A DNA stretch of 64,000 nt from positions 62,001 to 126,000 of the forward strand of contig NZ_AUBW01000013.1 in assembly GCF_000429445.1 (NCBI RefSeq), given 5' to 3'. Origin of the DNA: Algoriphagus terrigena DSM 22685 (GTDB taxonomy: Bacteria > Bacteroidota > Bacteroidia > Cytophagales > Cyclobacteriaceae). Both the position numbers and the translations under genes were made by a program. Each line of letters opens with the position of its first letter. The stretch's first letter is position 1. The notes under the pieces are model-generated. The model was not told where the DNA came from and ran no database searches. It saw nothing but the letters and a program-made list of their open reading frames with translations. This document shows positions 46,231 to 55,926 of this stretch, in pieces.

Positions 46231-47145
46231 TTAATTAGAGGCTAAAAAACCATTTACATCCAGCCAATGGATAAAAGCATCAAACCAGCGGTTGCTGGTT
46301 CGGCCCGGATTACCCAGCCCAAAACCGTGTCCACCGTTTTGGTAAAGATGAAACTCGACAGGGATGCCAGCTTTGTACCAGGAATCGACCACACCGAACT
46401 GGCCTTTAAAAAGAAAATCGTCTGTAGCGATTACATTAAACATGGGCGGGGCGTCTTTGGGAACTTCCACAGGTCCCATCCCGCCATAGATCGGGCCAAT
46501 AAAGGCCAATTTCATCGTCTTGGAGTTCAAGGTGCTGTGCATGGTCAATCCCGCACCAGCCGAAAAACCGATCATTCCCAGTCTATCCACATCCACTCCC
46601 CATTCCTCTGCACGCTCCACAATCATGGCATAGGCAGCCTCGGCATCTTCCAATTGATCCGAAAGATCAAAGGATGCCGGTCTCGGAGGGGCTTCTCCCT
46701 GGACAGCGGGTCGTGGTGATAAGGTCTGGTTCATAGATTCTTTAAAACCATCCATGGACTCGGGAGTTGGGCGCAAGCGGTACTTGAGGACAAAGGCTGC
46801 TGTTCCCTGATCGGCAAGTGCCTGCGCTACCTCCCAACCTTCATTTCCAAGAGAAAGCCATCTGAAACCTCCACCCGGAGCCACAATTACCGCTGCACCA
46901 TTGGCTTTGCCCGGTTCAGGTAAAAATGGAGTAATTGTCGCGGTGGTGATATTTCTCGCCATCGGATCACCCCATTGCTTAAACCAAGTTTCGGTAGCAG
47001 GTTGATTTTCCACTCCGCCTGTATTGAGCAAGATAGCATTGGGTTCAGCTGGTCTTTCCAGGGGATAAATAGTGCCATCCTGGGCCATGGCGGAGGAGGC
47101 GATCAACAGGCAGGACGCCAGGATCGAGTGTTTAAATAGGTTCAT
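46231..47145 (-). CDS. Secreted alpha/beta hydrolase, acetyl-xylan-esterase-like
   Basis: A 304-residue protein with a signal peptide (ILASCLLIASSAMAQDG). It is a BD-FAE/Axe-type serine esterase: oxyanion-hole region IVAPGGGFRWLS, nucleophile Ser in IGFSAGAGLTMH, acid Asp in NVIATDDFLFKG and catalytic His in NGGHGFGLG. Such enzymes remove acetyl or other small acyl groups from xylan and are frequent in hemicellulose loci. It ends the minus-strand run that starts with the aldo/keto reductase and lies 248 bp before the sigma gene. The exact ester (acetyl or feruloyl) is not determined. Confidence 0.87.
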   Translation of the reverse strand: MNLFKHSILASCLLIASSAMAQDGTIYPLERPAEPNAILLNTGGVENQPATETWFKQWGDPMARNITTATITPFLPEPGKANGAAVIVAPGGGFRWLSLGNEGWEVAQALADQGTAAFVLKYRLRPTPESMDGFKESMNQTLSPRPAVQGEAPPRPASFDLSDQLEDAEAAYAMIVERAEEWGVDVDRLGMIGFSAGAGLTMHSTLNSKTMKLAFIGPIYGGMGPVEVPKDAPPMFNVIATDDFLFKGQFGVVDSWYKAGIPVEFHLYQNGGHGFGLGNPGRTSNRWFDAFIHWLDVNGFLASN

Positions 47146-47239: not shown

Positions 47240-49082
<1,843 letters not shown>

Positions 49083-50051
49083 TTATTCATTTTCAACAAT
49101 GCCTGACATCTCTTTTGGACGCAGACTGGATTTTTCACTGGTAGGAAAGTCATCCGGCACAGGATAAGTCACCTTGCCGCTCGCCAACCATTCCGCAGCC
49201 CTGATCACGGTAGTTTGAAATCCAACACACCTGTAAGCCGGAGGGTAAGTTTCTCCTCTCCAGAGATGACCCATACTGGAGTTATAGACATTTCCCTTCC
49301 CGTACTCTACGACCCACTCCACGGGCCACATCTTTTTGGTACCTGTACTGTCATATGCATAGGACAGCACAGTCAAATCCTCTGCGGTACCCCGGGGGTA
49401 GCTGTAAACTTCCGTATTCACAGTCTTCCAGGATGCAGGATAGCCTTCGTTAATGGGGTGAGGATTCAGTATCTGTATGAGCGCGTCAAACCGGTCTCCA
49501 TGATTCGTGCCCTTCCCTTCTCCTTTGGGATGCTTGACGAGTTGCCTTTGATCATTTACTTCCAACGCGATTCCTGAATCTACTGAGCGCCAACCCAGAC
49601 CGATCATCTTATCGTACTCCTTCCAGTTTGGAAACGCATTATTCGCGGAATGAAGGATATACAAGCCTCCACCATTCTGCACGTAGTCTTCAAGACTCTT
49701 CTGCGCAGGTTCGGGCCAGCTTAGCGTTAGATCATGGATGTTATTGGTGTTTTGAATGACTACCGCATAAGATTCAAAATCCGGATTCCATCCCTGCTTC
49801 TGCATACTGTCGAGAGGTACCGTAGTGACATCAACTTTAAACCTGCCGCTGCTTTCCAATATCCATTTGATCACTTCAGTGGTTTGCTTCCAGTCATGAT
49901 TACTGAATCCATCCACGATTAAGACCGTGTGAACGGGCTTGGTTTGGGCAGCAAGATTTCCGCTCAAGGTGAAACACAAGCCGCATGCGATCAGCAGAGA
50001 GAACCTTCTCAACCAAAGTCTTGATGAATAAAAATCTTTCTTAAGGTCCAT
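49083..50051 (-). CDS. ThuA-domain protein, exported
   Basis: A 322-residue protein with a signal peptide (LLIACGLCFTLSGNLAAQT). The ThuA (class-I glutamine-amidotransferase-like) fold is indicated by HTVLIVDGFSNHDWKQTT, ESYAVVIQNTNN, YVQNGGGLYILHSANNAFPN and WVVEYGKGNVYNSSMGHLWR. ThuA proteins have no firmly assigned reaction; many occur with sugar dehydrogenases and glycosidases. Here it sits between the CE6-like esterase and the GH95 gene in the side-chain arm of the xylan locus, so a role with xylan sugars or their oxidised forms is inferred, not shown. Confidence 0.87.
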   Translation of the reverse strand: MDLKKDFYSSRLWLRRFSLLIACGLCFTLSGNLAAQTKPVHTVLIVDGFSNHDWKQTTEVIKWILESSGRFKVDVTTVPLDSMQKQGWNPDFESYAVVIQNTNNIHDLTLSWPEPAQKSLEDYVQNGGGLYILHSANNAFPNWKEYDKMIGLGWRSVDSGIALEVNDQRQLVKHPKGEGKGTNHGDRFDALIQILNPHPINEGYPASWKTVNTEVYSYPRGTAEDLTVLSYAYDSTGTKKMWPVEWVVEYGKGNVYNSSMGHLWRGETYPPAYRCVGFQTTVIRAAEWLASGKVTYPVPDDFPTSEKSSLRPKEMSGIVENE

Positions 50052-50135: not shown

Positions 50136-52643
50136 TCATTTCCCTGCTACCAAAGTAATCACCTCTCCCTCAGAGGTCTTGATATCGTACAGCTTCATAT
50201 CGCTCAAATCCACGGGAATAATCGTAGCAGCTGGCGACACGATCGGGTCGGCTGTAACTGGCACTTGGTAGAAAGGATTCGGGTTATCACCTCTTGCTTG
50301 GGTAAGTCCATTTCCTTCTTCTAAGCTCAAAGCATTGGGCACCCTCACTCGCAGATTTCCGCCGATTGTAGATTTGATCACGGCCTTTTCAATCTTCCCA
50401 TCTTTCCATTTCAGTTCCACTACTTCAAAACCTCCTTTGGCTCTAATTCCTGTAATGCTGCCGTCTTGCCAGACGTCTGGTAAAGCCGGAAGCAAATGAA
50501 TTTCCCCGTTGGCACTTTGAACCAGCATCTCGGTGATCCCAGAAGTACAGCCGAAGTTACCGTCAATTTGGAATGGTGGATGTGCATCAAAAAGGTTGTT
50601 GTAAGAACCTCCGCCTTCCCGGTTGGGACCTACCGGAGAAAGCTGGTTTTGGATGAGTTTATAGGCATGGTTGCCATCCAGCATCCTTGCCCACCAGTTG
50701 ACCTTCCAACCCATGCTCCAGCCAGTGGATACATCTCCACGTTGGATCAGTGTATTTTTGGAAGCAGAATACAACTCTGGAGTACGCAAAGGAGAGATCT
50801 GGTTAGACGGGAAAAGTCCGTACAAATGGGAGATATGACGGTGATGATCATTGGGATCGTCAATATCGTCCAGCCATTCCTGGAGTTGGCCGTGCTTCCC
50901 GACATGCATCGGAGGCAGTTGATCCCGCATGGTTCTCAGCGAATCGGCGAAAGATTGATCCTTATCCAGCATCTCCGAAGCCTGGATCACCGCACTGAAA
51001 GCATCAAAAACCAATTGATTGTCCATGGTAGTTCCGGCATCCAAAGAAGATCCATCATGTGCCGCAGGGGCATTTTCAGGTGATGTTCCGGGATTGACTA
51101 CCAACCAGGGTTTATCCGGATGTTTGACCAAAAAGTCCACATAGAACATTGCTGCCCCTTTTAGTATAGGATAGATAGACTTCAGATATTCCATGTCACC
51201 ACTGTATTGGAAATGATCCCAAAGGTGCTGGCTAGTCCAAGCTCCGCCGCCACTCCAGATCCCCCAGAATATCGCATCCACTGGACCGGTGATTCTCCAG
51301 ATGTCCGTATTGTGGTGCGCCATCCAACCCCGCGCACCATACATCACCCTGGCAGTTTCCTCACCAGCTTCGGCCATTTCAGAGACCATTTTCAGGAAAG
51401 GCTCATGAAGCTCGGCAAGATTGGTTTTCTCTGCCGGCCAGTAGTTCATCTGCGCGTTGATGTTGATGGTGTATTTGCTGTCCCATGGCGGAGACATTCC
51501 CTTGTTCCAAATCCCCTGCAAGTTTGCCGGTTGACCACCGGGCTGGGAAGATGAGATCAACAGATATCTACCGTACTGATAATAGAGGGTAGCCAAAGCA
51601 GGGTCATCCCCTGTCTTAAAGTTCTTTAGGCGCTCATCTGTCGGGAGCTTGGAAGCTTCCGTCTCGCCCAAGTCGAGGCTGACCCGATTAAAATAATTTT
51701 GATAGTCCGAGACATTGGTCTGGAGCAAAGCATCGAAAGATTTAGCAGCAGCTTTTGCCATAAATGCGGCTGCTCCGGCGTTTTCATCTCCGGAGAGATC
51801 CAGGTAGTTGTTGAAATTGGTAGCGATGGCAATGTAAACCGTCGCTTCGTCGGCATTTTTTACCGTGATGGAAGAATCGGAAGAAGTAAGCGTTCCTCCC
51901 TGATTTTTGACTTTAGCGATGCTTTTGAATTCTACTTGACCTTTCACTCCTTCATGATCTGTCGTAGTGCCGGAGATTGTCAGTTCCTTTTCTGAATTGA
52001 GGCCAATCGTAGCATTCGGCTGAGGAGTTGCCATAGATGCTGTGAATGAGATCATGCCGGGCTTGCTGGCTGTCAAGTGAACTGCGATCACATTATCAGC
52101 AAATGAAGCGATGGCTTCCCGGGTATATGTCACGCCAGCTACAGTATAGCTGACTTTGGAAATTGCCTTTGCTATATCCAATTCTCTACGATAATCTGTA
52201 AATGTACCATGTCCCTCAAAGGCGATATTCAGATCACCCACAGGCTGAAACTTCTGCCCATGAGACTTCTTGCTTTGAATAGTTTTGGCTGCCAATTCCT
52301 CCGCTTCTTTTTGTTTTCCTTCGAAGATCAAGCGTCGGATTTCGGGCAGGGCTGCCAAGGCATCCGGGTTATCATTCCGATTGGGCCCCCCGGACCAAAC
52401 GGTATGCTCGTTAAGCTGAATCAGCTCATTTTCTACGTTGCCATAGATCATTGCACCCAGCCGACCGTTGCCGATCGGCAAGGCGTCCGTCCATACATCT
52501 GCAGCTGGCTGCTTGTACCAAAGTGTCAAGGGCGAGCTTTCCTGAGCTTTTACCTGAAGGGAAAAAGCCACAAAAAGCACTACAAATAAGCTTCTTAAAG
52601 AATACTGACTATTAAGCATCTTGGGTATATTAATATTTTTCAT
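50136..52643 (-). CDS. GH95 alpha-L-fucosidase/alpha-L-galactosidase
   Basis: An 835-residue secreted enzyme (signal [18 protein letters not shown]). Full-length GH95: the N-terminal beta domain opens [20 protein letters not shown] and an (alpha/alpha)6 barrel follows. By analogy with the B. bifidum fucosidase, the inverting acid is Glu523 in [10 protein letters not shown], the activated Asn pair are Asn394 and Asn396 in NINAQMNYW, and the partner Asp is probably Asp694 in [18 protein letters not shown] is also conserved. GH95 enzymes cut terminal alpha-1,2-L-fucose, and some, such as a B. ovatus enzyme from a complex-xylan locus, prefer alpha-L-galactose. The neighbouring xylanases and esterases favour L-galactose on glucuronoarabinoxylan, but sequence alone does not decide. 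Confidence 0.93.
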
Positions 52644-52660
52644 TTCAATTCAATTGGCGC

Positions 52661-53671
52661 TTACATCTCAACCAACGCCTTGATCACTCCGGTTTCCGGA
52701 TTTAGCCACGACTGAAAATCATCCTTCACCTGATCAAATTTCACTTTGTGCGTGATGTACTTTTCCACTGACAATTGTCCGGAGGCCATCGCATCCAGCA
52801 CCTGATCAAAGTCCTCTCTGGTGGCATTTCTGCTACTCATTAAGGTTGCTTCCCGCTTATGAAACTCGGGGTGCGAGAAGGCAATCTCTCCTTTTTGCAA
52901 GCCTACCAAGACATAAGAACCTCCGTGGGCTATGTATTGAAATCCCTGATTGATTGCCGCCAAACTTCCGGTCGCATCAATCACAGCATCGCAAAAATCT
53001 CCTTTGGTGATCTCCTGGATGACCTCTCGAGCAGTTGCTCCAGCTTTCACCACGTGAGGAATGTTCCAGACATCCTTACAAAACTCCAGTCGCTTCTCAT
53101 TTATATCCATCGCGATCACAGTACCACCAGCGATACGTGCAAATTCCATGACGCCCAGTCCGATCGGTCCGGCACCGATGACCAGCACAAACTGCCCCGG
53201 CTTCACTCCTGCCCTGCGGACTCCATGGGCGCCTATCGCAAATGGCTCAGCCAAGGCAAGTTGCTCCAGGTTTAATCCTTCCTTTTTCACCAAAGAAGAA
53301 ACCGGCAAGGAGACAAACTCCTGCATCCCGCCATCCTCATGGACGCCAAAAACGCTTATTTTCTGACAGCAATTCGGCTTTCCATTTCTACAGGCCACGC
53401 AGATTCCACAGCTGAAATAGGGAATCACAGTCACCATGTCACCCTTGGAAATCAGTTCGCTATCTCCGATTTCCACCACTTCGCCAGCCAACTCGTGTCC
53501 CAGCGTTCTGGGATAGGAAAAGAAGGGTTGCGTCCCTTCAAACGCATGCAAGTCAGTGCCGCAGATACCGATTCTCTTGATCTTGACAATGGCCCTTCCT
53601 TCGGAAAGCTGTGGCAATTCCCCGTCCTGATATGCAAATTGCCCTGGCGAGGTGCAGCTTAAAATTTTCAT
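52661..53671 (-). CDS. Zinc-dependent alcohol/sugar-acid dehydrogenase (MDR family)
   Basis: A 336-residue medium-chain dehydrogenase. The catalytic zinc ligands are in GICGTDLHAFEG and TLGHELAGEVVE, the structural-zinc Cys cluster in CGICVACRNGKPNCC and the NAD-binding loop in VLVIGAGPIGLGVMEFA with Asp in IAMDINEKR (NAD preference). It resembles L-galactonate/L-idonate-type 5-dehydrogenases. Its start overlaps the aldo/keto reductase stop by 4 bases and it lies 17 bp before the GH95 gene, so these three are one unit. Proposed step: oxidation of L-galactonate or L-fuconate made by the AKR. The substrate is inferred. Confidence 0.85.
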   Translation of the reverse strand: MKILSCTSPGQFAYQDGELPQLSEGRAIVKIKRIGICGTDLHAFEGTQPFFSYPRTLGHELAGEVVEIGDSELISKGDMVTVIPYFSCGICVACRNGKPNCCQKISVFGVHEDGGMQEFVSLPVSSLVKKEGLNLEQLALAEPFAIGAHGVRRAGVKPGQFVLVIGAGPIGLGVMEFARIAGGTVIAMDINEKRLEFCKDVWNIPHVVKAGATAREVIQEITKGDFCDAVIDATGSLAAINQGFQYIAHGGSYVLVGLQKGEIAFSHPEFHKREATLMSSRNATREDFDQVLDAMASGQLSVEKYITHKVKFDQVKDDFQSWLNPETGVIKALVEM

Positions 53672-54714
53672 CTAGTTTGGTTCAAATTAAATTCTGATAA
53701 ATACTTGGCGATCAAGCCCTGCTCTTTGCACGCGTCCCAAAATGAATCGGGAATTGGCGTCGTGCAAAACTCCGCGTTAGCCCGGATTCTATGCATTGAG
53801 GTGGAGTTCAGAGCCAAGGAATTAACTCCGGGAAGCAGAAGGGCAAACTGGATGCAGGCATGAGCGGGATCTATGGCGTGCCCTTCGCAAAGAGCAAAAA
53901 ACTTCCTTCTCCAGAGGAACCGTTCATTGAAGACGGGGTCATTTGAGTTCATTTTCTGATAATCAAAGTAATCCCCACCCACCAAGAATCCCGAATGGAA
54001 AACCGCTGAATTGACAATGCCCACGCCTTCCTTTTCCAGTAATCTCATAAATTCAAACAGCTCCACAGGATGATCGTAGATCGTCATGCTATTGGCTATC
54101 ATCACCCAGTCGAGCGGAAAATGCTGATAAATCTTCCGGATCACCTTCCAGTCTTTCGATCCAACACCGATCGCTTTTACTTTGCCGGCTTGCTTCAGTT
54201 CGTCCAGAGCCGCGTAGCCTTCCAGGATATCTTCAAATCGCCTTTCGTAATCTTCCGATGAAGTCGCCAGATCCAAATACTCGTCGGGATCATGAATGGA
54301 AACCAGCTGGCTTTCATAGCCTTTCAACAGTGCATTTCCCTCTTCGAAACAGGCTAAGATCCCCTGATAACTGATGTCCTGAACTGCGTCATGAGTCAAA
54401 TCTTTCCACACATCACGCTCAAAAGTAGGTTCGGATCCGCTCAAGGACGCCCGCTTCCATCCCAGCTTGTTACTGATGAGCACCTTACTTTTTGGTACTT
54501 TCAAGTCAAAAAGCGCCTGCCCCAAAACCTCCAGGGCCATTCCGGCTCCGTACTTTCCTGCCGAGTCAAAGACTGCCCCTTCAGGAAAACATTCCAGCGC
54601 CGCCAATACCAACTCGAGCTTGTGCCCATAGGGCCTGGCCTCGTATAGATTACCGAGCGAACTCGTCCCAATAATCATAGCTGGTACTGATATGCCGGTT
54701 TTTCCTAATTCCAT
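53668..54714 (-). CDS. Aldo/keto reductase, L-fucose/L-galactose dehydrogenase-like
   Basis: About 348 residues from the ATG at 54714 (MELGKTGISVPAMIIGTSSL); the frame is open upstream but the family starts here. Catalytic tetrad: Asp and Tyr in VFDSAGKYGAG, Lys in LISNKLGW and His in LVSIHDPDEY. It belongs with the AKR group of L-fucose, L-galactose and D-threo-aldose 1-dehydrogenases, which oxidise the sugar at C1 to a lactone. It is the first gene of the side-chain arm and overlaps the Zn-dehydrogenase by 4 bases. A palindrome 105-120 bases upstream is the likely LacI site. A lactonase and the later aldolase or kinase steps are not in the window. Confidence 0.85.
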   Translation of the reverse strand: MELGKTGISVPAMIIGTSSLGNLYEARPYGHKLELVLAALECFPEGAVFDSAGKYGAGMALEVLGQALFDLKVPKSKVLISNKLGWKRASLSGSEPTFERDVWKDLTHDAVQDISYQGILACFEEGNALLKGYESQLVSIHDPDEYLDLATSSEDYERRFEDILEGYAALDELKQAGKVKAIGVGSKDWKVIRKIYQHFPLDWVMIANSMTIYDHPVELFEFMRLLEKEGVGIVNSAVFHSGFLVGGDYFDYQKMNSNDPVFNERFLWRRKFFALCEGHAIDPAHACIQFALLLPGVNSLALNSTSMHRIRANAEFCTTPIPDSFWDACKEQGLIAKYLSEFNLNQTR

Positions 54715-54818
54715 ATATGAAGATGCTTCAAGCAATTGTGGCAAGGGAATTCTATCTGGTATAAACCCAGTTTCCCAAAACAAAAAACCAATATCATCAA
54801 TCTGACTAAAAGTATATT

Positions 54819-54834
54819 GGTCAAACGTTTGACC
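54819..54834. promoter_or_regulatory. Perfect 16-bp palindrome, candidate LacI-family operator
   Basis: ggtcaaacgtttgacc is perfectly symmetric with the central CG that LacI/PurR-type proteins intercalate. It lies between the divergent AKR (105 bases) and LacI (72 bases) genes. On the plus strand its TTTG is followed after 19 bases by TATCTATA, resembling a Bacteroidota -33/-7 promoter, so binding would also shut off the lacI gene. Confidence 0.7.
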
Positions 54835-54906
54835 TCTCGATCCAAACTCCTATCTATAAACCCCTGAGCTTTCGTCCGTTTATTTTAGATTGCGCATATA
54901 CCCAAG

Positions 54907-55926
54907 ATGAGAAAGAAGAGAATCAGCATCACCGACATCGCCACTGCGCTCCACGTCACGCCATCCACGGTCTCCAGAGCCCTAAATGGAGGTGGAAAAG
55001 TCAGTGAGAAGAAGCGACTGGAGATTCTTTCCTTGGCTAAAAAACTGGGGTACAGGCCTAACCCGATTGCGAAGAGTTTGGTGGAAAACCGAACTCACAC
55101 GATCGGGTTGATCATCCCGGAATTCACCCACCATTTCTACAGCCGCATGCTTGCCGGGATCGAAAGCGTCACTTCCAAGGCCGGGTACCAATTGCTGATC
55201 TGTACTTCCAACGAAAAGCAAAAACAGGAAATCAAGTCCACGCAAACGCTCTTAGACGCACGAGTCGACGGAATTCTCGCGACGATCTCCAAGATGAATG
55301 ACAAATTTGAGCATCTGCAGGAGGTGATGGACAGCGGAACTCCTTTGGTGCTGGTGGATAGGTTTTCCGAGGAAATAGAGACTCCCTACGTCATCTCAGA
55401 CGACTTCAATGGGGCATTCTCTGCAGTAGATTACCTGTGTCAAAACGGCTGCAAACACATCCTTCATATCAAAGGACCGGCAAATCTATCCACGACCTTC
55501 AATAGATTTATGGGGTACAAGGAGGCGCTTCGAAAGCATGGAATAGCCTTCAACGAGGAGTTGATTCTGGAAAGCAGCGATACCAATCTGGTAGAAAAAA
55601 TCAGGTTCTGTCTCTCGAATCTTCCTGTGGATGGCGCATTTGCCTATAGTGATTACCTGGCTTTTGAGATCTACAAAGTCGCAAGCGAACTGAAAATCCA
55701 GATTCCTGGGCGACTTTCGGTGATAGGCTATGCAGACGAGCCCATTTCCACCTACATCAACCCTACTTTGAGTAGCGTCAATCAGCAACCCTTTGAAATG
55801 GGAGTTGCCGGAGCCAAGTATCTGTTGAACAAAATAAGCAACCCGGAAACCGTATTGGAGGTAAAAACCCTAGCCACCAGATTAGTGATTCGGGAATCCA
55901 CGCAAGCGGTAAAAACTGGGCACTAG
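54907..55926 (+). CDS. LacI-family transcriptional regulator
   Basis: A 339-residue protein. The N-terminal helix-turn-helix with hinge helix is ISITDIATALHVTPSTVSRA to YRPNPIAKSLVENRT, and the sugar-binding core starts IGLIIPEFTHHFYSRMLAGI. Further landmarks are VDGILATISK, IPGRLSVIGYADEPIS and the C-terminal LATRLVIRES. It is divergent from the AKR/ADH/GH95 run and shares a spacer holding a perfect palindrome. It most likely represses that run, and itself, until L-galactose, L-fucose or a product binds; the effector is inferred. Confidence 0.93.
   Translation: MRKKRISITDIATALHVTPSTVSRALNGGGKVSEKKRLEILSLAKKLGYRPNPIAKSLVENRTHTIGLIIPEFTHHFYSRMLAGIESVTSKAGYQLLICTSNEKQKQEIKSTQTLLDARVDGILATISKMNDKFEHLQEVMDSGTPLVLVDRFSEEIETPYVISDDFNGAFSAVDYLCQNGCKHILHIKGPANLSTTFNRFMGYKEALRKHGIAFNEELILESSDTNLVEKIRFCLSNLPVDGAFAYSDYLAFEIYKVASELKIQIPGRLSVIGYADEPISTYINPTLSSVNQQPFEMGVAGAKYLLNKISNPETVLEVKTLATRLVIRESTQAVKTGH

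Follow-up and report, generated by a model that had tools for sequence, protein, structure and literature searches.

An Algoriphagus operon proposed to release L-galactose from xylan and oxidise it under a LacI-family regulator

Introduction

Which sugar is served by a run of genes in which a glycoside hydrolase of family GH95 stands beside two predicted dehydrogenases and a divergent LacI-family regulator? The question is raised by a stretch of 64,000 nucleotides from Algoriphagus terrigena DSM 22685 (contig NZ_AUBW01000013.1, positions 62,001 to 126,000; referred to here as the window). An original prediction, made from the letters of this DNA, proposed that the GH95 enzyme, a zinc-dependent medium-chain dehydrogenase (Zn-ADH) and an aldo/keto reductase (AKR) form a module for the release and oxidation of L-galactose, or of L-fucose, attached to a xylan locus. 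Here, we describe the operon and its relatives, and weigh L-galactose against the other candidate substrates. In our assessment, the operon probably serves L-galactose, with release of the sugar by GH95, its oxidation at C1 by the AKR and conversion of L-galactonate to D-tagaturonate by the Zn-ADH, the whole being linked to xylan and controlled by the LacI protein. Observed directly in the sequence are the genes and their order, a palindrome that is conserved and occurs once in the genome, and genes whose families fit the remaining steps of the pathway. Other genomes, contigs and loci are cited by our own labels (G, C and L numbers), and published work is cited from the parts of each paper available to us.

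A conserved operon with a putative operator

The minus strand carries, in this order, the AKR gene (53668-54717; 349 aa from its ATG; Pfam Aldo_ket_red, 174 bits; proposed L-galactose 1-dehydrogenase), the Zn-ADH gene (52661-53671; 336 aa; Pfam ADH_N and ADH_zinc_N; proposed L-galactonate 5-dehydrogenase) and the GH95 gene (50136-52643; 835 aa; Pfam GH95 catalytic domain, 612 bits; proposed exported α-L-galactosidase). The AKR and ADH genes overlap by 4 bp and 17 bp separate ADH from GH95, confirming the tight packing on which the original prediction was built. The gene for the LacI-family regulator (54907-55926, plus strand; 339 aa; Pfam LacI, the helix-turn-helix part, and Peripla_BP_3) is divergent, 123 bp from the AKR gene if the latter is read from a TTG start. 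Between the two, at 101 bp upstream from the AKR ATG, lies a perfect 16-bp palindrome, GGTCAAACGTTTGACC (54819-54834, no strand), which we propose as the operator for LacI.

Two starts come into consideration for the AKR: ATG at 54717, giving 349 aa, and TTG at 54783, giving 371 aa. The ATG is favoured because the open frame of the AKR in relatives L032, L034 and L036 begins at the matching position, and because in G027 the stretch matched by the leader contains two in-frame TAA codons, the frame being open from the ATG. The 371-aa query aligns from its residue 1 or 6 in two further relatives, and the ATG is therefore the likely start, not a certain one.

Among 58 genomes surveyed at an E value of 1e-30, AKR relatives occur in seven, all of the same genus, namely the organism's own genome and six of 35 other genus genomes. 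These six keep the arrangement LacI // AKR - ADH - (0 to 2 genes) - GH95 - (ThuA) - SASA - CE1-like esterase, with identities of 66-92% for LacI, AKR, ADH and GH95, and the LacI relative (71-88% identical) is divergent to the AKR in every one of them. The SASA-type gene is downstream of GH95 in 6/6, with a ThuA-like gene, present in two of the six, intervening in those two; the CE1-like esterase of L033 is split over two frames. The same association is found outside the genus in Ilyomonas limi (L102), where the order is SusC-SusD-AKR-ADH-GH95-SASA-esterases.

The 14-base core of GGTCAAACGTTTGACC has no second site in the 5.78-Mb genome at up to one mismatch, and a backwards control gives none. 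The palindrome is identical in five of the six genus relatives and, as judged by eye, differs by one base in the sixth (L036). A set of nine named Algoriphagus loci, three of which overlap the six relatives, has it exactly in six and with one mismatch in two; it is missing only in L048, near whose AKR no GH95 was found. On the simplest reading, the LacI protein would be dedicated to this operon, with the palindrome as its putative operator, and we regard a conserved operon with its own putative switch as real.

Two side observations concern the same loci. Between ADH and GH95, two relatives (L034, L036) encode a protein of 550 or 561 aa without a Pfam match. Proteins of this group, of 548-561 aa, are encoded at L044:14434-16119, L045:12067-13725, L047:12055-13731 and L048:16755-18401, between ADH and GH95 in the first three; in L048, the gene follows a SusC/SusD pair. 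The members scanned had no Pfam match and no sequence match in the PDB, and the structure predicted for the 550-aa protein was of unusable quality (mean predicted local distance difference test score 51.6); they are possibly a new glycan-active family. In addition, G020 carries a second AKR-ADH pair (L037:7025-15709), 55% and 65% identical to the window AKR and ADH, amid three sulfatases and with no palindrome upstream, which is maybe for a sulfated polymer of L-fucose or L-galactose.

The surrounding locus

The run extends past 50136, the limit given in the original prediction: on the same strand it continues, with gaps of 84, 21, 52 and 94 bp, through a ThuA-like protein (49083-50051; Pfam ThuA, 79 bits), a SASA-type carbohydrate esterase (48183-49061; Pfam SASA, 108 bits), a CE1-like, possibly feruloyl, esterase (47240-48130; Pfam Esterase, 79 bits) and an α/β-hydrolase, probably an esterase (46231-47145; Pfam Abhydrolase_3, 42 bits; BD-FAE, 27.0 bits at a cut-off of 26.8). 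The CE1-like esterase reaches 141 bits against the NCBIfam xylanase/feruloyl esterase model, far below its cut-off of 1200. Beyond the α/β-hydrolase follow, in that direction, a pair of extracytoplasmic function sigma factor and FecR, two SusC/SusD pairs and two GH10 xylanases. The pairing of SusC/SusD with a xylanase that defines a xylan-utilisation locus is present twofold, together with CE1-like esterases, and the neighbourhood resembles a xylan locus.

GH95: α-L-galactosidase or α-L-fucosidase?

The principal alternative is that the operon serves L-fucose, or both sugars, with GH95 as a fucosidase, the AKR as an L-fucose (D-threo-aldose) 1-dehydrogenase and the Zn-ADH acting on L-fuconate or a later acid; we consider it a credible candidate but a rather unlikely one. 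On the side of L-galactose, α-L-Gal is present on corn xylan side chains (PMC7176698) and BACOVA_03438 (PDB 4UFC), a GH95 enzyme of Bacteroides ovatus PUL-XylL, is described as releasing exclusively L-Gal from corn xylan, with only trace activity on fucosylated oligosaccharides (PMC4491172). The window protein has an N-terminus that resembles a secretion signal by eye and matches the catalytic domain PF22124 with 612 bits (cut-off 27). Its best solved match is 4UFC (863 bits), ahead of the fucosidase 7KMQ (738 bits), and its catalytic part is 60.0% identical to the former and 54.8% to the latter. The SPE and ININ motifs, which align with Glu501, Asn372 and Asn374 of 4UFC (the catalytic Glu and two Asn of the inverting mechanism), are kept. 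That the closest solved relative is a xylan α-L-galactosidase supports the proposal that this GH95 removes α-L-galactose from xylan.

The residue near O6/C6 does not help in this respect. The equivalent of Thr370 is present in the window protein, and we had considered it as proof of galactosidase activity; this was rejected, as published fucosidases carry Thr near C6 (PMC8245568, PMC10063614), XacAfc95 among them. Thr370 therefore decides nothing between galactose and fucose, and, as far as this residue goes, the comparison of the active site around C6 suggested in the original prediction cannot discriminate. Its suggested assay on p-nitrophenyl-α-L-galactoside is also a poor choice, because BACOVA_03438 does not cleave this substrate according to PMC4491172. 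The +1 loop differs from that of BACOVA_03438, with Ala at 4UFC Phe435 and Trp at 4UFC Ala438; the latter is like the fucosidase 7KMQ and speaks against a galactosidase.

Phylogeny gives a mixed picture. In a tree of 20 rows, the window GH95 joins 4UFC apart from the fucosidases with a support of 98/96, which we had taken as decisive; in a tree of 57 rows the same join drops to 88/34. The larger tree was extended by taking 40 places for further GH95s, of which 37 became rows (L172 and L183 were skipped, and L178 had no GH95 frame), and two of 16 GH95s from named loci (L067, L077) were dropped from the trees, their anchor motif missing. In this tree, the window GH95 and 4UFC fall within one 33-row clade (100/99), which, to the benefit of the L-fucose alternative, also includes the GH95s of L160 and L165, located in L-fucose operons (lactonase, short-chain dehydrogenase/reductase (SDR)-type L-fucose dehydrogenase (FucDH), FucP, FAH-type hydrolase and a further SDR). 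Within it, the window GH95 belongs to a 17-row clade (100/100) in which an esterase or SASA gene is near 12 of the 16 other rows, GH29 near two (L044, L152) and FucP near none; these neighbour labels come from BLAST against the genes of this genome, and other families therefore went unseen. Taken together, an α-L-galactosidase is favoured by the sequence comparisons, not proved.

The two dehydrogenases

The AKR has the AKR fold (PF00248, 174 bits), and D51, Y56, K84 and H142, which we take to be the catalytic Asp-Tyr-Lys-His tetrad, are invariant in eight rows. Its closest solved relatives are L-galactose dehydrogenases, distant at 53 bits with the single sequence and 67 bits with a profile; a profile of eight AKRs gives six solved matches at an E value of 1e-5, five of them L-galactose dehydrogenases, weak at 40-67 bits. 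The ADH has the Zn-ADH fold, and Cys37, His59 and Glu60 as well as Cys88/91/94/102, presumably the catalytic and structural zinc ligands, respectively, are likewise invariant in eight rows. It groups among Zn-ADHs of the ketose reductase, threonine dehydrogenase and RspB types; among the 21 NCBIfam models that it matched, the best is PRK10083 (182 bits, cut-off 376), no curated cut-off is reached and none is named for L-galactonate 5-dehydrogenase. Of the predicted oxidation of L-galactose by AKR and ADH, the part on the AKR thus gains from its nearest, if distant, solved relatives, with L-fucose still a live rival.

Both dehydrogenases come from broad families and score below the curated cut-offs of the NCBIfam models matched, which would also suit a second alternative, in which their substrate is some other sugar or acid from the xylan locus (e.g. 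L-arabinose, D-xylose or a released acid) and GH95 is only co-located. We regard this as improbable: the AKR-ADH combination recurs near FucP (17/39), lactonase (17/39), GH95 (14/39) and GH29 (9/39), all linked to L-galacto-sugars, and once beside UxaA/UxaB-type genes (L093).

Genomic context of related AKRs

These counts derive from 80 of the 395 AKR relatives found. The loci are related to one another, and the counts are therefore leads, not tests; some are short contigs, and absences there therefore mean little. The ADH family is present at 39 of the 80. Alongside the AKR, loci with ADH have FucP in 17, lactonase in 17, GH95 in 14, an esterase in 11, GH29 in nine and a sulfatase in none, and the 41 loci without ADH have FucP in four, lactonase in two, GH95 in two, an esterase in two, GH29 in 22 and a sulfatase in 14, most of the sulfatase-bearing loci being from one Chloroflexi clade. 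GH29 was counted by cluster membership (nine of nine sampled members were confirmed as GH29 by Pfam), which revised the counts by best match alone (2/39 with ADH and 12/41 without).

As an observation apart, ten Chloroflexi loci (L062, L064, L071, L073, L079, L099, L105, L106, L110 and L117) have GH29-type genes, a sulfatase in nine of ten, and a gene from one sequence cluster, of which a single member was scanned, that of L117 (908 aa), with domains that bind molybdopterin and 2Fe-2S; they possibly represent a sulfated-fucan locus.

Several observations from the window and these surveys weigh against an L-galactose operon. GH43, GH67 and GH115 were not found among the 30 window open reading frames (ORFs) scanned with Pfam (29 of the 47 with 180 aa or more, plus one shorter), and the same scan found neither lactonase nor transporter in the run. 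Nine loci from other genera, L102 and L093 among them, gave no match to the palindrome at up to two mismatches. A GH29-type fucosidase is located no more than 8 kb from the AKR at 31 of the 80 loci, nine of these with ADH, and a GH29-type protein lies within the operon itself, between ADH and GH95, in two of the six genus relatives (L031, L034). In the AKR tree, the five loci from outside Algoriphagus that stand closest to the window AKR (three Echinicola, Pleomorphovibrio and Lunatibacter) all have FucP alongside; this transporter would fit either L-fucose or L-galactose. The proposal that the operon serves L-fucose draws on these GH29 and FucP neighbours, and on FucP at 21/80 and an L-fuconolactonase-type lactonase at 19/80 of the AKR loci.

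Other points tell against L-fucose. GH29 is rarer with ADH (9/39) than without (22/41) and GH95 commoner (14/39 vs 2/41), in loci that are non-independent and in some cases cut short, and L-fucose routes with such a Zn-ADH are not known to us. The genome has an SDR-type L-fucose cluster of its own, about 12-17 kb past the end of the window (L011:3052-7824), with an SDR, a FAH-type hydrolase, a lactonase, an SDR FucDH (397 bits, cut-off 300) and FucP (526 bits, cut-off 280). The L-fuconolactonase-like protein (274/400 bits) and the FAH-type hydrolase (334/500 bits; best model 2,4-didehydro-3-deoxy-L-rhamnonate hydrolase) score below their equivalog cut-offs, and no L-fuconate dehydratase could be assigned, the two scanned of five enolase-superfamily matches resembling other sugar-acid dehydratases. 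Of 59 genomes in the genus, 56 have a FucP above its cut-off and the other three are less than 90% complete, whereas the AKR is sporadic (7/36). L-fucose thus seems to be served without the AKR operon, and L-galactose is therefore favoured for the latter. The chemistry at C1 is parallel in the SDR-type oxidative L-fucose pathway (FucDH, L-fuconolactonase, FAH hydrolase, FucP), but that pathway uses an SDR and not an AKR, and the cluster in this genome has no Zn-ADH. One enzyme of this type, the SDR FucX of Campylobacter, is described as acting on L-fucose and D-arabinose and weakly on L-galactose, with no growth increase on L-galactose (PMC6946681).

Genes for the remainder of the pathway

For an L-galactose route through D-tagaturonate, the genome holds D-tagaturonate reductase (UxaB), altronate dehydratase (UxaA), 2-keto-3-deoxygluconate (KDG) kinase and 2-keto-3-deoxy-6-phosphogluconate (KDPG) aldolase. 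Genes for KDPG aldolase, KDG kinase, a UxaA-type dehydratase and UxaB lie within 5.8 kb on C1, with one further ORF of 218 aa between the last two; UxaB alone is over a curated cut-off (387 bits, NCBIfam cut-off 359), and the other three were placed by Pfam family.

UxaB was also tried as a discriminator and rejected. Of 59 genomes in the genus, 57 have it (48 of them above the cut-off), so that the L-galactose route is permitted, not proved; in a selection of 50 genomes from the 80 AKR loci, it occurs in 46. As a further point on the adverse side, it does not track the ADH, with 25/29 genomes with AKR and ADH and 21/21 with the AKR alone. The four genomes without it are three metagenome-assembled genomes (L074, L084, L096) and Mucilaginibacter dorajii (L087), which has AKR and ADH and gave no UxaB. 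Across the genus, tagaturonate reductases are of two types by score, high (about 540-650 bits) and low (about 350-420 bits); this genome has only one of the low type (387 bits, C1:358511-359719), and the six operon-bearing relatives have the high type (612-646 bits).

At one of the 80 loci, L093 from a metagenome-assembled genome, LacI // AKR-FucP-GH29-RhaM-ADH-lactonase has as neighbours genes for a UxaA-type dehydratase and for a tagaturonate reductase (660 bits, cut-off 359). The dehydratase, of altronate/galactarate type, has 294 bits to the galactarate model, below its cut-off; the two are the expected next steps after D-tagaturonate, but this locus too contains GH29.

The loci in which AKR, ADH, FucP and GH29 occur together, as in M. 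dorajii, whose genome had no tagaturonate reductase found, would be explained if AKR and Zn-ADH were a general L-galacto-sugar module in which the Zn-ADH oxidises L-fuconate at C5, giving an L-fucose route that bypasses 2-keto-3-deoxy-L-fuconate. We think this unlikely, though a little less so than an unrelated xylan-locus substrate.

Proposed mechanism and relation to known systems

Returning to L-galactose as the favoured substrate, the exported GH95 would cut terminal α-L-galactose off xylan side chains. In corn xylan, the side chains bearing α-L-Gal are feruloylated, and the esterases of the same run would strip acetyl and possibly feruloyl groups. The freed L-galactose would enter the cell via a transporter encoded outside the run and be oxidised at C1 by the AKR to the lactone, which would open spontaneously or via a lactonase whose gene lies about 14 kb past the end of the window. 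The Zn-ADH would then oxidise L-galactonate at C5 to D-tagaturonate, from which tagaturonate reductase, altronate dehydratase, KDG kinase and KDPG aldolase would lead to pyruvate and glyceraldehyde-3-phosphate. The LacI protein would repress at the palindrome until bound by a sugar or acid of the route. The non-phosphorylating entry route put forward originally holds for the entry, which would proceed without phosphorylation, and genes for the D-tagaturonate route are present; KDG is phosphorylated later.

In the L-galactose pathway of Phocaeicola vulgatus, the L-galactose dehydrogenase is reportedly of AKR type, and a lactonase is said to belong to the same cluster. The Algoriphagus run has none, and one lactonase is encoded elsewhere on the contig. 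By description, P. vulgatus (BVU_0219, BVU_0222) and Luteolibacter LG18 (lguA/lguD) resemble the system proposed here in having L-galactose and L-galactonate dehydrogenases that lead to D-tagaturonate, altronate, KDG and KDPG. In the window, by contrast, GH95 and esterases go with the dehydrogenases in one unit, a LacI with a palindrome of its own would control it, UxaA/UxaB are encoded elsewhere in the genome and the run lacks a lactonase. LguA and LguD of Luteolibacter LG18 oxidise L-galactose and L-galactonate, with kinetics given in PMC12632266, which cites Hobbs 2014 for the P. vulgatus pathway via D-tagaturonate. Catabolism of L-galactose through D-tagaturonate is accordingly published already, and the route itself is not undescribed. 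Nothing on this route came from the main text of PMC6952198 or from PMC5698469, where the matching passages concern anhydrogalactose alone.

The other close parallel, BACOVA_03438, is alike in family, in 60% identity of the catalytic part, in the equivalents of Thr370, Asn372, Asn374 and Glu501 and in the xylan setting. It differs in that the window GH95 is adjoined by sugar-oxidising genes and a LacI gene, whereas for PUL-XylL the available part of PMC4491172 gives a hybrid two-component system (HTCS) regulator and names no such dehydrogenases. Each biochemical step, including GH95 α-L-galactosidase activity and L-galactose oxidation via D-tagaturonate, is already known; what looks new is that one xylan-linked unit combines release and oxidation with esterases and a dedicated LacI. 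The arrangement was not described in the titles and abstract openings of the matching open papers listed, a search that took in few full texts and no subscription papers.

Conclusions

Terminal α-L-galactose is one unusual decoration of recalcitrant corn-fibre xylan, and the thermophile in a corn-fibre study was unable to use the L-galactose freed by added GH95, as far as the available part of PMC7176698 describes it. We suggest that gene context be used in calling a GH95 enzyme a galactosidase or a fucosidase, the C6-proximal residue alone being insufficient. If the proposed role is true, a compact operon that controls itself and covers both the release and the consumption of L-galactose would be a source of enzymes, of a route for L-galactose in engineered strains and of a candidate L-galactose-responsive LacI switch.

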